Source: Ancylobacter vacuolatus
GTDB lineage: Bacteria > Pseudomonadota > Alphaproteobacteria > Rhizobiales > Xanthobacteraceae
Direction of reading: 5' to 3'
DNA length: 64,000 bases
NCBI RefSeq assembly: GCF_030813595.1
Contig: NZ_JAUSUH010000006.1
Span: 1 to 64,000, forward strand
The position numbers were made by a program, and so were the translations under genes. Below the pieces are notes generated by a model that saw nothing but the letters and a program-made list of their open reading frames with translations, had not been told where the DNA came from and searched no databases. Within the stretch, counting starts at the first letter, position 1. The number at the start of each line of letters is the position of its first letter. Positions 9,220 through 15,777 of this stretch are shown piece by piece.

Positions 9220-9786
9220 TTGCGGGTCACGAAAGCCAAGGTCGCCGAGCATCGCCGGGCGATCCTCGATTCCGCCTCCCGCCTGTTTCGCGAGCGCGGC
9301 TTCCGGGAGGTCGGCGTCGCCGAGATCATGCAGGCGAGCGGGCTGACCCATGGCGCCTTCTACGGCCATTTCCGCTCCAAGGCGGAGCTTGCCGATCACG
9401 TCTGCCAGGAGGCCTGCGCCAACGGGGCGCTGGCCTGGCTGAAATCGGCCTCGCTCACCGAGATTCTCGACCGCTACCTCACCCCCGCCCATCGTGACAA
9501 CCCGGCCGCCGGCTGCGCCCTCGCAGCGCTGGGCGCAGAGGTCGCGCGCCAGTCGGGCGAGGTGCAGAAAAGCTATGCCGAGGGCACGGGCCACTATGTC
9601 GACGCCCTTGAGCGCCACATGGACGACGCCCCGCCGGAAGCTCGGCGCAAGCAGGCCATGGCGGTGCTGTCCTGCATGGTCGGCGCCCTTACCCTGGCGC
9701 GCGGCGTGGCGAGCGGCGACCCGGCGCTCTCCGACGCCATCCTCGCCGCCGCGCGCGAGCAATTGCGCAGCCATTTCGGCGCGTAA
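9220..9786 (+). CDS. TetR/AcrR-family transcriptional regulator
   Basis: A one-domain repressor of 188 aa. The N-terminal helix-turn-helix is clear: RRAILDSASRLFRERGFREV, then VAEIMQASGLTHGAFYGHF, then RSKAELA. The C-terminal ligand domain is generic. I chose the TTG at 9220 because AGGAG lies 9 nt upstream and the protein then has the family length. The frame is open further upstream to 9121, but that part is not TetR-like. It lies 84 bp before amiC on the same strand and may regulate that locus or an unrelated target. The ligand cannot be predicted. Confidence 0.88.
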   Translation: MRVTKAKVAEHRRAILDSASRLFRERGFREVGVAEIMQASGLTHGAFYGHFRSKAELADHVCQEACANGALAWLKSASLTEILDRYLTPAHRDNPAAGCALAALGAEVARQSGEVQKSYAEGTGHYVDALERHMDDAPPEARRKQAMAVLSCMVGALTLARGVASGDPALSDAILAAAREQLRSHFGA

Positions 9787-9870: not shown

Positions 9871-11049
9871 ATGCGGAGAGCTTCCCCGGCTCATGAGACG
9901 AAAGACGCGGCCTGGCGGGTGGGACTGCTGTTCTCCGCCACTGGGGTGACGGCGGATGTGGAAACCTCGCAGCTCGGCGGCACGCTGCTTGCCATTGACG
10001 AGATCAACGCCGCCGGCGGCGTGCGCGGGCGGCGCATCGAGGCGGTGGCCTATGACCCTGCCTGCGACCCCCGCGCCTTTCGTGGCCTCGCCGAAAAGCT
10101 GCTGACCGAGGATGGCGTGCGGCTCCTCTTCGGCTGCTACATGTCCTCCACCCGCAAGGCGGTGCTCCCCATTGTCGAGGCGCAGGGCGGGCTGCTGTTC
10201 TACCCCACGCTTTACGAGGGCTTCGAGTATTCGCGCCACTGCGTCTATACCGGCGCGGCGCCGAACCAGAATTCGATCCAGCTCGCCGCCTATCTGCTGC
10301 GCCATTACGGCAACCGCTTCTTTCTCATCGGCTCCGACTACGTCTATCCCCACGAATCCAACCGCATCATGAGCGATTTCGTGGTGCAGTCGCGCGGGCG
10401 GGTGCTGGGCGAGGTCTATGTGCCGCTCAGTGCGCCCGAGGCCGCCTTCGCCGAGGTGATGGAGAAGGTGCGCGAGGCCGAACCGGACGTCATCTTCTCC
10501 ACCGTGGTCGGCACGGACACCGCCCGCCTCTATGCGGCGCACCACGCCGCCGGCTTCTCGGCCCGCCGGCTGCCGATCGCCAGCCTCACCACTAGCGAGG
10601 CGGAGGTGGCGCTGATGCCGCGCGAGGTGGCGGTCGGCCACATCACCGCCGCGCCTTTCTTCGAGACGCTGGGCACGCCGGCGGCGCGGCGCTTCGTCGC
10701 CGCCTTCAAGAAGCGCAACGGCGTGCACCGGCCGGTGACGGCGGCGGCGGAGGCGGCCTATTTCCAGCTGCACATCGCCATGCAGGCGCTGGAGCGCGCC
10801 GGCACCGATGCGCCCGAAGCGCTGCTGGCCGAACTCGGCGCCGGCAGCTTCGAGGCGCCGCAGGGGCGGGTGCGGATCGAGCCCAGCAATCACCATGCCT
10901 GGCTGCGCCCGCGCATCGCCGAGATCGGCGCGGATGGGCGCTTTCACATCGTGTGGGATGCCGGGGCGGCGGTGAAGCCGGACCCCTATTGCGTGGTTCA
11001 GAACCTAGACGACTGGCCGGCCGATGGCCGCCGGTTCGCGCTGTCGTGA
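9871..11049 (+). CDS. amiC: AmiC-like amide sensor, negative regulator of amidase
   Basis: In Pseudomonas, AmiC binds short amides and, when unliganded, holds the antiterminator AmiR inactive. This 392-aa protein has the periplasmic-binding (Peripla_BP) fold but no signal peptide, as expected for the cytoplasmic sensor. Recognisable AmiC segments include GCYMSSTRKAVLPIVE, YPTLYEGFEYS, APNQNSIQLAAYL, VVGTDTARLYA, IASLTTSEAEVALM and the C-terminal PDPYCVVQNLDDW. The amide-contact residues of known AmiC lie in the first two. It is followed after 14 bp by amiR. The alternative, a urea or amide ABC-transporter binding protein, is disfavoured by the missing leader and by the amiR-amiE neighbours. 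Confidence 0.92.
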   Translation: MRRASPAHETKDAAWRVGLLFSATGVTADVETSQLGGTLLAIDEINAAGGVRGRRIEAVAYDPACDPRAFRGLAEKLLTEDGVRLLFGCYMSSTRKAVLPIVEAQGGLLFYPTLYEGFEYSRHCVYTGAAPNQNSIQLAAYLLRHYGNRFFLIGSDYVYPHESNRIMSDFVVQSRGRVLGEVYVPLSAPEAAFAEVMEKVREAEPDVIFSTVVGTDTARLYAAHHAAGFSARRLPIASLTTSEAEVALMPREVAVGHITAAPFFETLGTPAARRFVAAFKKRNGVHRPVTAAAEAAYFQLHIAMQALERAGTDAPEALLAELGAGSFEAPQGRVRIEPSNHHAWLRPRIAEIGADGRFHIVWDAGAAVKPDPYCVVQNLDDWPADGRRFALS

Positions 11050-11063
11050 CGGGAGGCGGCGAG

Positions 11064-11702
11064 ATGGCGATGCAGGTGCTCAAGGATTTGCGCGGCCTTC
11101 GGGTGTCGGTGATCCACCCGCCCGACGAGGAGCGCCCGAGCCTCATCGAGCATCTGCGCCGCATCGGCTGCACGGTGGAAACGGTTTGGCCGGTGCCGGC
11201 GGAATGGCCCTTGGGCGCCGATGTCGTCCTGCTCGCCATCGAGCCGGACGCGCGCGCCGACATCAAGGCCCTGCTGAAAGGCGACCCCGCCCGGCGCCCG
11301 ACGCTGATCGCGGTGGTGGGCTACGAGAACCCGGCGACGCTGCAAATCGTGCTGGAAGCCGGCGCGGTGGCGGTGGTGGAGCGGCCGATCCGCCCCTTCG
11401 GCCTGCTCACCCACCTCACCATCGCCCGCACGCTATGGCTGGAGCGCGAAGAGGCGAGGAAGCGGGTCGCCCGGCTGGAGCACAAGCTCGCCGGCCTGCA
11501 GACGGTGCAGCGGGCGAAGTCGATCTTGATGGAAAATCTCGGCTTGAGCGAGGAGGACGCCTATCAGAGCCTGCGTCGGCAGGCGATGGCCAAGCGCATG
11601 CCGCTGGAGGACATGGCGGCCTCGCTGATCCACGCCTCCGAACTGTTGCAGATGTCGCCCCGCAGCCGCGACGCGCGGGCCGGGCCGCCGGCCGGCTCTT
11701 GA
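11064..11702 (+). CDS. amiR: AmiR-like ANTAR-domain antiterminator
   Basis: An RNA-binding antitermination regulator of 212 aa. The N-terminal half is a degenerate receiver-like domain (LKDLRGLRVSVIHPPDEERP, then LHRIGC-type text LRRIGCTVETVWPVP). A coiled coil (EREEARKRVARLEHKLAGLQ) follows, then the ANTAR module (VQRAKSILMENLGLSEEDAY, then QSLRRQAMAKRMPLEDMA). This is the AmiR architecture. The ATG at 11064 follows GGGAGGCGGC, and the gene starts 14 bp after amiC. In Pseudomonas the AmiC-AmiR complex controls read-through of a terminator ahead of amiE. A terminator is present in the matching place here. Confidence 0.92.
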   Translation: MAMQVLKDLRGLRVSVIHPPDEERPSLIEHLRRIGCTVETVWPVPAEWPLGADVVLLAIEPDARADIKALLKGDPARRPTLIAVVGYENPATLQIVLEAGAVAVVERPIRPFGLLTHLTIARTLWLEREEARKRVARLEHKLAGLQTVQRAKSILMENLGLSEEDAYQSLRRQAMAKRMPLEDMAASLIHASELLQMSPRSRDARAGPPAGS

Positions 11703-11814
11703 AGTCGCGCGGCGAGGGTGATTAGATAGTGCTCATGGACGATTTCCGGGCAGAGGGCCCGCGGATCGCTCTTCCGCCCGCCACCAATGCTGTTGGCCGG
11801 CCCTGGCACTGTCG

Positions 11815-11849
11815 CCCGAAAGGCTCGCGAGAGCCCGACGGGTTTTTTT
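11815..11849 (+). terminator. leader terminator between amiR and amiE
   Basis: This is a two-tier hairpin. CCCG (11815-11818) pairs with CGGG (11839-11842), and GGCTC (11822-11826) pairs with GAGCC (11831-11835) around a GCGA loop. It is followed immediately by seven T residues. It sits in the 281-bp gap ahead of amiE, so RNA from amiC-amiR would stop here unless read-through occurs. Upstream, CGGGC-AGAGG-GCCCG (11747-11761) forms another small stem-loop. ANTAR targets are normally paired hexaloop hairpins, and I could not find a clean example, so antitermination is inferred from gene context. Confidence 0.8.
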
Positions 11850-11983
11850 GTGCCTGATCTAGCGTGGACCGGCCACGGTCGCTCCTGGGAACAACGCGGT
11901 TCCGCCCCCATCCCCCTTCCCGACACCGCAAGGCCCCGGCCGCCCGCGAGGCGCGCCCGCGCGCCTTTTCGAGGAGACTTCCC

Positions 11984-13021
11984 ATGTTGCACGGCGACAT
12001 TTCCAGCAGCAAAGACACCGTCGGCGTGGCGGTGGTGAACTACAAGATGCCGCGCCTGCACACCAAGGCCGAGGTTCTGGAGAACGCCCGCAAGATCGCC
12101 GACATGGTGGTGGGCATGAAGATCGGCCTGCCGGGCATGGATCTTGTGATCTTCCCCGAATATTCGACCCACGGAATCATGTATGATTCCAAGGAGATGT
12201 ACGAGACCGCCTCGACCATCCCCGGCGATGAGACCGAGATTTTCGCCGAGGCCTGCCGCAAGGCCAAGGTGTGGGGCGTGTTCTCGCTCACCGGCGAACG
12301 CCATGAGGAGCACCCCAACAAGGCGCCCTACAACACGCTCATCCTGATGAACGACAAGGGTGAGATCGTGCAGAAATACCGCAAGATCATGCCCTGGGTG
12401 CCGATCGAGGGCTGGTACCCCGGCAATTGCACCTATGTCTCGGAAGGACCGAAGGGGATGAAAATCTCCCTCATCATTTGCGACGACGGCAATTACCCGG
12501 AAATCTGGCGCGACTGCGCGATGAAGGGCGCCGAACTCATCGTGCGCTGCCAGGGCTACATGTACCCGGCCAAGGAGCAGCAGGTGCTGATGTCGAAGGC
12601 GATGGCCTTCGCCAATAATGTCTATGTCGCGGTGGCCAATGCCTCCGGCTTTGATGGCGTCTATTCCTATTTCGGCCACTCGGCGATTGTCGGCTTTGAC
12701 GGGCGCACGCTCGGCGAATGCGGCGAGGAGGACTATGGCATCCAGTACGCCGCGCTGTCCGTGTCGCTGATCCGCGACGCGCGCAAGAACATGCAGTCGC
12801 AGAACCACCTCTTCAAGCTGGTGCATCGCGGCTATACCGGCCTGATCAATTCCGGCGACGGCGACAAGGGCGTGGCCGCCTGCCCCTATGATTTCTACGC
12901 CAAATGGATCGCCGACCCCGAGGGCACGCGGGAAATGGTGGAATCCTTCACCCGCTCCACAGTCGGCACCGAGGAATGCCCGATCGAGGGGATCCCGAAC
13001 CCCGACACCACCCATCGGTGA
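11984..13021 (+). CDS. amiE: aliphatic amidase
   Basis: This enzyme hydrolyses short aliphatic amides (acetamide, propionamide) to the acid and ammonia in the cytoplasm, allowing use of amides as carbon and nitrogen. The 345-aa protein is a nitrilase-superfamily member that follows Pseudomonas AmiE almost residue for residue. Catalytic E59 (FPEYST), K134 (KYRKIMPW) and C166 ([15 protein letters not shown]) fall at the same numbers as in that enzyme. The ATG at 11984 follows GAGGAGACTT. The gene is preceded by the amiC-amiR pair and a leader terminator. No amiB or amiS (chaperone or permease) genes accompany it. Confidence 0.97.
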
Positions 13022-15317: not shown

Positions 15318-15400
15318 GACGGGCTCCTTGGCGGCGGGCGGGGACCGCAGTCGTAGCAAGCCCGGCGCCCGGCGCCAAATGGCGCGCGGGGGAGGAGGGT

Positions 15401-15777
<377 letters not shown>

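Follow-up and report, generated by a model that had tools for sequence, protein, structure and literature searches.

A third ANTAR-type hexaloop beyond the terminator of a probable amide-responsive antitermination leader upstream of amiE in Ancylobacter vacuolatus

Introduction

In Pseudomonas, amiE is the first gene of the ami locus and the regulatory genes lie downstream. The ami operon of P. aeruginosa combines an amide sensor, an ANTAR regulator and an amidase with a leader that carries a terminator and a dual hexaloop, and both loops of the amiE leader have A at position 1 and G at position 4 (A1 and G4), according to the consulted part of the report (PMC3369931). The ANTAR model, as set out in the consulted parts of two papers (PMC3369931; PMC8934654), comprises a pair of A1/G4 hexaloops, with the second overlapping the terminator, and the linker between the hairpins is given as about 2–25 nt in the part of a third (PMC8164766). 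The same hexaloops (P1 and P2), with P2 overlapping the terminator, are found in the EutV/EutW leaders of Enterococcus faecalis, a system that differs in its signal and in its phosphorylated receiver. In the sections of PMC8934654 consulted, the conserved G4 is described as stacking on Tyr164 of EutV, the dimer contacts the hexaloops in succession, and the minimal, sufficient site is proposed to be a single hexaloop; an extra single hexaloop is present in the sponge RNA EutX, and not in the mRNA after the terminator. The NasS/NasT-type nitrate leaders of alphaproteobacteria have the same combination of a sensor and an ANTAR protein acting on leader terminators, but differ in their signal (nitrate) and their targets, and the consulted part of the source (PMC6759348) mentions no third hairpin.

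Here we describe the amiC-amiR-amiE locus of Ancylobacter vacuolatus, where, compared with the P. aeruginosa operon (though not with the Pseudomonas leader itself), the regulators precede amiE and a third hexaloop lies past the terminator. The mechanism is a known one with a three-hexaloop variant: the third hexaloop, P3, is the new element, and the rest is the classic amidase antitermination switch.

Materials and Methods

The window is the whole stretch of DNA analysed, positions 1 to 64,000 of contig NZ_JAUSUH010000006.1, and the ami genes and leader elements described for it are on the + strand. Related loci (designated by L numbers) were drawn from one named collection, 296 genomes of the family and a number of added stretches. 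Leaders were collected with a pattern consisting of P2, terminator and T tract, which required G at position 4 of the P2 loop. Identical leaders were counted once, and 46 distinct leaders matched. The aligned set comprises 33 of these; left out were L044 and 12 leaders belonging to AmiR proteins of low identity (33–41%) to that of the window. The pattern was not found in L003, L011–L031, L041, L064 and L078, and a search for amiE in L011–L031 gave no match at 1e-10. Two covariance models were used. R1 includes the window leader and leaves out P3, and large samples were scored with it under stricter filters, while R2 was built from 12 leaders of other genera and contains no same-genus sequence.

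The P3 finder fixed flanking bases only and left the loop free. A strict P3 was defined as a hairpin within 65 nt with at least 4 unbroken pairs, a closing C-G pair and A1/G4. The set of leaders from other families is independent, as it came from a search of the order with a model in which P3 is absent. Its 15 members are a subset of 21 places found; those left out are from the genome itself (2), a same-genus paralog (L106), two leaders already counted in the family set (L089 and L091) and one without the pattern (L107).

Results

The gene order amiC-amiR-leader-amiE, which a preliminary description had proposed, was borne out by matches to protein families and solved structures, and the three genes lie on one strand with short gaps between them. 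The amiC-like gene (9871–11049) codes for an amide sensor with a periplasmic-binding-protein fold (Pfam Peripla_BP_5, 1.5e-136), for which the best match among solved structures is P. aeruginosa AmiC (1pea, 1.5e-111). The product of the amiR-like gene (11064–11702) has an AmiR_N pseudo-receiver (1.1e-38) and an ANTAR RNA-binding domain (9e-16), both above the Pfam cut-off, and matches the AmiR structure 1qo0_D at 6.5e-28; its closest named relatives are from Xanthobacteraceae bacterium 501b (95% identical) and Ancylobacter species. The aliphatic amidase gene amiE (11984–13021) scores 726 bits against NCBIfam NF009802, where the cut-off is 427. The window holds the elements by which an AmiC/AmiR system is recognized: a regulator with AmiR_N and ANTAR domains, an adjoining AmiC sensor, an aliphatic amidase target and a terminator in the leader. 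The intergenic gap runs from 11703 to 11983, between the amiR stop codon (11700–11702) and the amiE ATG (11984), and an AGGAG sequence at 11972–11976 probably serves as the ribosome-binding site of amiE. The regulators-first order is common to relatives, with amiR directly followed by amiE in 22 distinct loci, and 21 of these carry the P2-terminator-T-tract pattern after amiR. The exception, L041, has an amiR-amiE leader (2098–2338) that has lost the T tract and kept P1 and P3. Elsewhere in the window, a bacterial RNase P RNA of class A is present at 15398–15776 on the - strand (313.7 bits).

Folding and conservation both place an intrinsic terminator at 11814–11849, with a T7 tract at 11843–11849. 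Its sequence, GCCCG-AAA-GGCTC[GCGA]GAGCC-CGA-CGGG-T7, gives five outer pairs, a 3x3 internal loop and five inner pairs, the outermost being a G-T pair that uses the first T of the tract, and the centroid energy is -17.5 kcal/mol. The simple terminator scan of the window did not list this hairpin, because the scan demands an unbroken stem. Taken alone, the terminator folds only mildly better than shuffled sequences (z -1.47; 14/200 shuffles as good), and the fold of the whole 286-nt leader is no better than its shuffles (z -0.08), while the fold of 11725–11852 beats them (z -2.76; 2/200). Among the 33 distinct related leaders, pairing holds in every cell (100%) of the outer helix and in 93.9% of those of the inner helix, and each of the five inner pairs shows two-sided changes. 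The terminator is real, and it is conservation that settles this rather than single-sequence statistics. The strong terminator with a T7 tract between amiR and amiE, as first noticed, is therefore upheld and conserved; loss of the hairpin in relatives, which would have spoken against it, was not seen. Two other structures were discarded. A long-range stem, with a 5' arm located before the predicted RNA start, appears in folds starting at 11700 or 11725 and is gone when the fold starts at 11735. A second terminator after P3, GGCGCG[CCCG]CGCGCC-TTTT at 11950–11969, is by eye not kept in all relatives.

Upstream of the terminator at 11814–11849 is the first hexaloop, P1 (GCCACC[AAUGCU]GUUGGC, 11780–11797), which has one C.U mismatch. 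RNAalifold recovered P1 and the terminator unprompted from the 33 aligned leaders. P1 is paired in 88.3% of cells, has two-sided changes in 6 of its 8 pairs, and keeps its closing C-G pair and loop G4 in 33/33 leaders; it was not part of the collecting pattern, so its conservation is unselected. An alternative pentaloop register (CCAA-N5-UUGG) was rejected, being paired in 77.3% of cells against 75.6% in shuffles and without covariation. The second hexaloop, P2 (GGC[ACUGUC]GCC, 11805–11816), follows after a linker of 7 nt (from 11797 to 11805), which is within the published range, and its 3' arm GCC (11814–11816) is also part of the 5' arm of the terminator. The GGC/GCC arms are present in 33/33 leaders, although P2 and its G4 were required by the collecting pattern. 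Both window loops, AAUGCU and ACUGUC, have A1 and G4 on stems of at least 3 bp, as the ANTAR model asks. The double hexaloop had previously been called not obvious and the RNA target thought perhaps atypical; with both loops located and P2 overlapping the terminator, that view does not hold, and the target as read from the window is canonical. Rfam covariance models gave no match at 11600–12050, even at E values up to 10.

Loop position 1 is looser in relatives than the published A1, which counts against the antitermination reading: in P1 it is A in 23/33 leaders and G in 10/33, and in P2 it is A in only 7/33, the window being one of the seven. The AmiR residue aligned to EutV Tyr164 is also Tyr, whereas Arg142, which likewise contacts G4 in EutV, aligns with Leu, which counts against (residue numbering was counted by hand). 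A further point against is that, by eye, AmiR-type leaders of betaproteobacteria and of some Rhizobiaceae and Stappiaceae have A instead of G at loop position 4 (loops AACAUU, AACAGA and AAAAAG), namely L082 (3886–3964), L027 (2621–2696, - strand), L080 (3600–3810) and L116.

Over the 33 leaders, 93.1% of cells are paired compared to 81.5% in shuffles, two-sided changes occupy 85 cells compared to 26.5, and slid versions of the structure are all far worse than the true register. We claim covariation for P1 and the inner stem of the terminator only; as the outer stem and P2 show little or no variation, they offer little evidence on pairing. The model without same-genus sequences, R2, found the window leader (E 4.4e-13), and genome-wide it placed this leader first of the 8 listed (E 3.4e-11). 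Second came C9:156882-156958 (E 2.2e-3), beside a more distant second amiC/amiR pair. R1 matched 26/30 genomes of the genus, 6 of these via the weaker paralog leader only, and 20/397, 3/337 and 7/398 genomes in samples of the order, class and phylum, respectively, each of which includes the genome itself. Both models found the amiE leader of the Paraburkholderia plasmid pBN4, in a locus that begins with amiE and ends with amiCR. The comparison of leaders across related amiCRE loci, suggested at the outset, found the terminator, P1 and P2 conserved.

Overlapping the amiR stop codon is a conserved block, TTGAAG-N17-TTAGAT (11699–11727), which is the predicted promoter of the leader, with an RNA start predicted at about 11734–11735. 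The block is present in 21/21 same-genus, 11/12 other-genus and 11/15 other-family leaders (shuffle means of 0.17, 0.23 and 0.09), using a pattern that was written after viewing the leaders and allowed three alternatives for the second hexamer. This amounts to 43/48 leaders, and the spacer is 17 bases in 41 of the 43 matches when 16–18 were allowed. Where the block overlaps amiR, coding constraint may add to its conservation; in L008 it is preserved in non-coding DNA, some 100 nt past the amiR stop. A scan of the window for E. coli-type promoters gave nothing at 11699–11727. Given the block and its fixed 17-base spacing, the leader probably forms a separate transcription unit that starts near the amiR stop. 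It had been supposed that basal transcription makes AmiC/AmiR and then stops; the position of the terminator agrees with this, and the conserved promoter-like block speaks against a single run-on unit. Just past the predicted start, folds of same-genus leaders predict a 5' hairpin, P0 (11737–11775 in the window). A hairpin occupies this place in each of the 12 same-genus amiE leaders (-16.4 to -25.0 kcal/mol) with variable sequence; an alifold of their alignment gives no common P0 structure, and in a fold of 11735–11910 the window P0 is displaced by other pairs.

A third ANTAR-type hexaloop, P3 (GGAAC[AACGCG]GUUCC, 11888–11903), begins 38 nt past the T tract. Among same-genus leaders its loop keeps G4 in 22/22 and A1 in 20/22, while positions 2, 3, 5 and 6 vary more. 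As background, 25 of 441 hairpins on both strands of the window (at least 5 pairs, a six-base loop and a closing C-G) have A1 together with G4. Strict P3 hairpins occur in 18/22 same-genus leaders (shuffle mean 0.30, maximum 3) and in 13 of the 15 leaders from other families of the order (mean 0.22, maximum 2), 8 of the 15 being from one family and L093–L095 near-identical. The 11 leaders from the family's other genera all lack it, which counts against P3, as do 11 leaders of the distant AmiR paralog (L059 left out). The arms covary: over 31 distinct rows 201 cells are paired, where shuffles average 160 and reach 177 at most. These rows had been selected for G4 and a minimum of 4 pairs, a choice that favours pairing, and L037 and L099, for which the finder returned no hairpin, are not among them. 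By eye, L117 and L118, leaders from a different order within the class, have GCCGAC[AGGGCU]GUCGGC at the P3 place, and no P3-type hairpin was seen in the 280 bases viewed of each of L119–L123. The P3 counts concern related sequences and do not stand for independent events. For most of the 15 other-family leaders the scan gave no further terminator downstream of P3, and L100 and L102 have weak candidates. We found no description of a hexaloop after the terminator in the search listings and openly accessible passages covered.

Several other leaders deserve mention. The genome has three ANTAR matches. Elsewhere in the genome, a second amiC/amiR-like pair (L077, C9:154500-160500) has its own P1-P2-terminator leader (C9:156879-156957) with loops AGCGUU and UAUGCA and no P3, located before a carbon-nitrogen hydrolase gene (PF00795). 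Just before an amiC-like gene (L078, 1340–1417; C9:167839-167916), GGC[AACGAC]GCC leads into a terminator and may represent a third ANTAR leader, with a weak model score (E 6.1). In two of the 22 amiR-amiE loci, both of the same genus (L074 and L075), a TetR-type gene like that at 9220–9783 of the window stands in the place of amiC, while P1, P2, the terminator and P3 are kept. The same P2-terminator-T-tract pattern also precedes urt-type transporter genes. On Ancylobacter polymorphus plasmid pB (L081), a sensor gene, an ANTAR gene, a leader and urt transporter, amidase and urease genes form one run, a putative amide-to-ammonia cluster behind one AmiR-type leader. Apparent tandem antitermination modules, each made up of a hairpin pair and a terminator, were seen by eye in L115 (3492–3715; Rhizobium etli 8C-3), L116 (1607–1828, - strand; Roseibium aggregatum) and L080 (Shinella). 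The first two resemble the window in having an AmiR-type leader beside amiCR and a hairpin at the P3 place, but differ in having another hairpin and a second terminator downstream of it; neither was listed by R2 at E values up to 1.

Discussion

The genes, the dual hexaloop and the conserved terminator make it very likely that amiE is preceded by an amide-responsive AmiC/AmiR antitermination leader, and AmiR-type antitermination, already suspected in the preliminary description, stands as the most likely form of control. From the genes, the terminator, P1, P2 and P3, as read from the sequence and its comparison, a scheme can be drawn; in it we infer the promoter, the part of amide as the signal, the binding of AmiR, read-through and whatever role P3 may have. 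Transcription would start just after amiR, at about 11734. Without amide, AmiC would hold AmiR, the nascent RNA would form the terminator and polymerase would stop at the T7 tract. With amide, AmiC would release AmiR, and the AmiR dimer would encounter P1 followed by P2; as the 5' arm of the terminator is taken up by P2, the terminator could not close and amiE would be transcribed. L074 and L075 count against this scheme, as they keep the leader, amiR and amiE and have no amiC upstream of amiR. The sensor is thus not always kept beside the switch, and in these two loci it seems to have been lost or replaced while the RNA switch was kept.

Three other accounts of the leader were weighed. The order of amiC, amiR and amiE on one strand with short gaps, and the terminator between amiR and amiE, would also suit one operon transcribed from a promoter before amiC, with the terminator setting how much transcription passes from amiCR into amiE. 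This we think unlikely in view of the promoter-like block at or near the end of amiR in 43/48 leaders (17-base spacing in 41), its preservation in L008 within non-coding DNA, and the pBN4 leader of the same type, which precedes amiE far from amiCR. That the terminator merely insulates amiCR, with amiE expressed unattenuated from a downstream promoter of its own, is very improbable. The 134 nt from the T tract to amiE leave room for such a promoter, which the preliminary description had named as a way in which amiE might escape the terminator, but no sigma-70-type match was found there (11850–11983), a weak test as the scan also misses the conserved block at 11699–11727; an insulator would have no need of P1, which is nevertheless conserved and covarying, and P2 shares an arm with the terminator. 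Leader-peptide attenuation through a 40-codon ORF (11735–11857, MDDFRA...) we consider barely credible. The ORF starts at the predicted RNA start and spans the terminator, and MD-starts occur in 9 of 12 same-genus leaders, but its length and frame vary (20 to 52 codons), the CATGGA start is absent from the other 3, and conservation tracks base pairs; the ORF was rejected as a feature.

For P3, another AmiR site is the most likely reading of the hairpin. P3 can play no part in what is decided at the first terminator, because it is made only after termination has failed. Since it exists only in RNA past the terminator, the simplest role for P3 on the read-through RNA would be to keep AmiR on the induced message, which could act as local feedback or protect the long untranslated leader. 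We favour this retention of AmiR, and the main rival is that P3 is the leftover first hairpin of a second antitermination module. That rival, taken together with the idea that P3 is a DNA operator, is possible but doubtful. P3 is indeed an inverted repeat, the Rhizobium etli, Roseibium and Shinella leaders appear by eye to have a second hairpin pair and second terminator at this place, and, again by eye, a GGAC-type stem bearing other loops persists in L010, L060, L062 and L063. A dyad operator, however, would not be expected to show lopsided conservation of the loop (positions 1 and 4 kept; 2, 3, 5 and 6 freer), nor G-T pairs and compensating arms with more paired cells than any shuffle, and a leftover module sits poorly with the scarcity of second terminators in the other-family leaders, L100 and L102 apart. 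That A1/G4 is kept steadily in several families, in most cases with no second terminator found by the scan, suggests that P3 is in present use.

We tentatively propose an alphaproteobacterial three-hexaloop class of leaders, in which P1 and P2 would decide termination and P3 would be a third AmiR site tying AmiR to the induced message. The analysis also yields a tested covariance model for AmiR-type leaders, which the Rfam scan did not match here. P3 would be a natural, conserved case of a single hexaloop serving as a full ANTAR site, as proposed in the consulted part of PMC8934654. If the proposal is true, the read-through RNA would limit its own induction, or be protected, a step that is absent from the two-hexaloop model.
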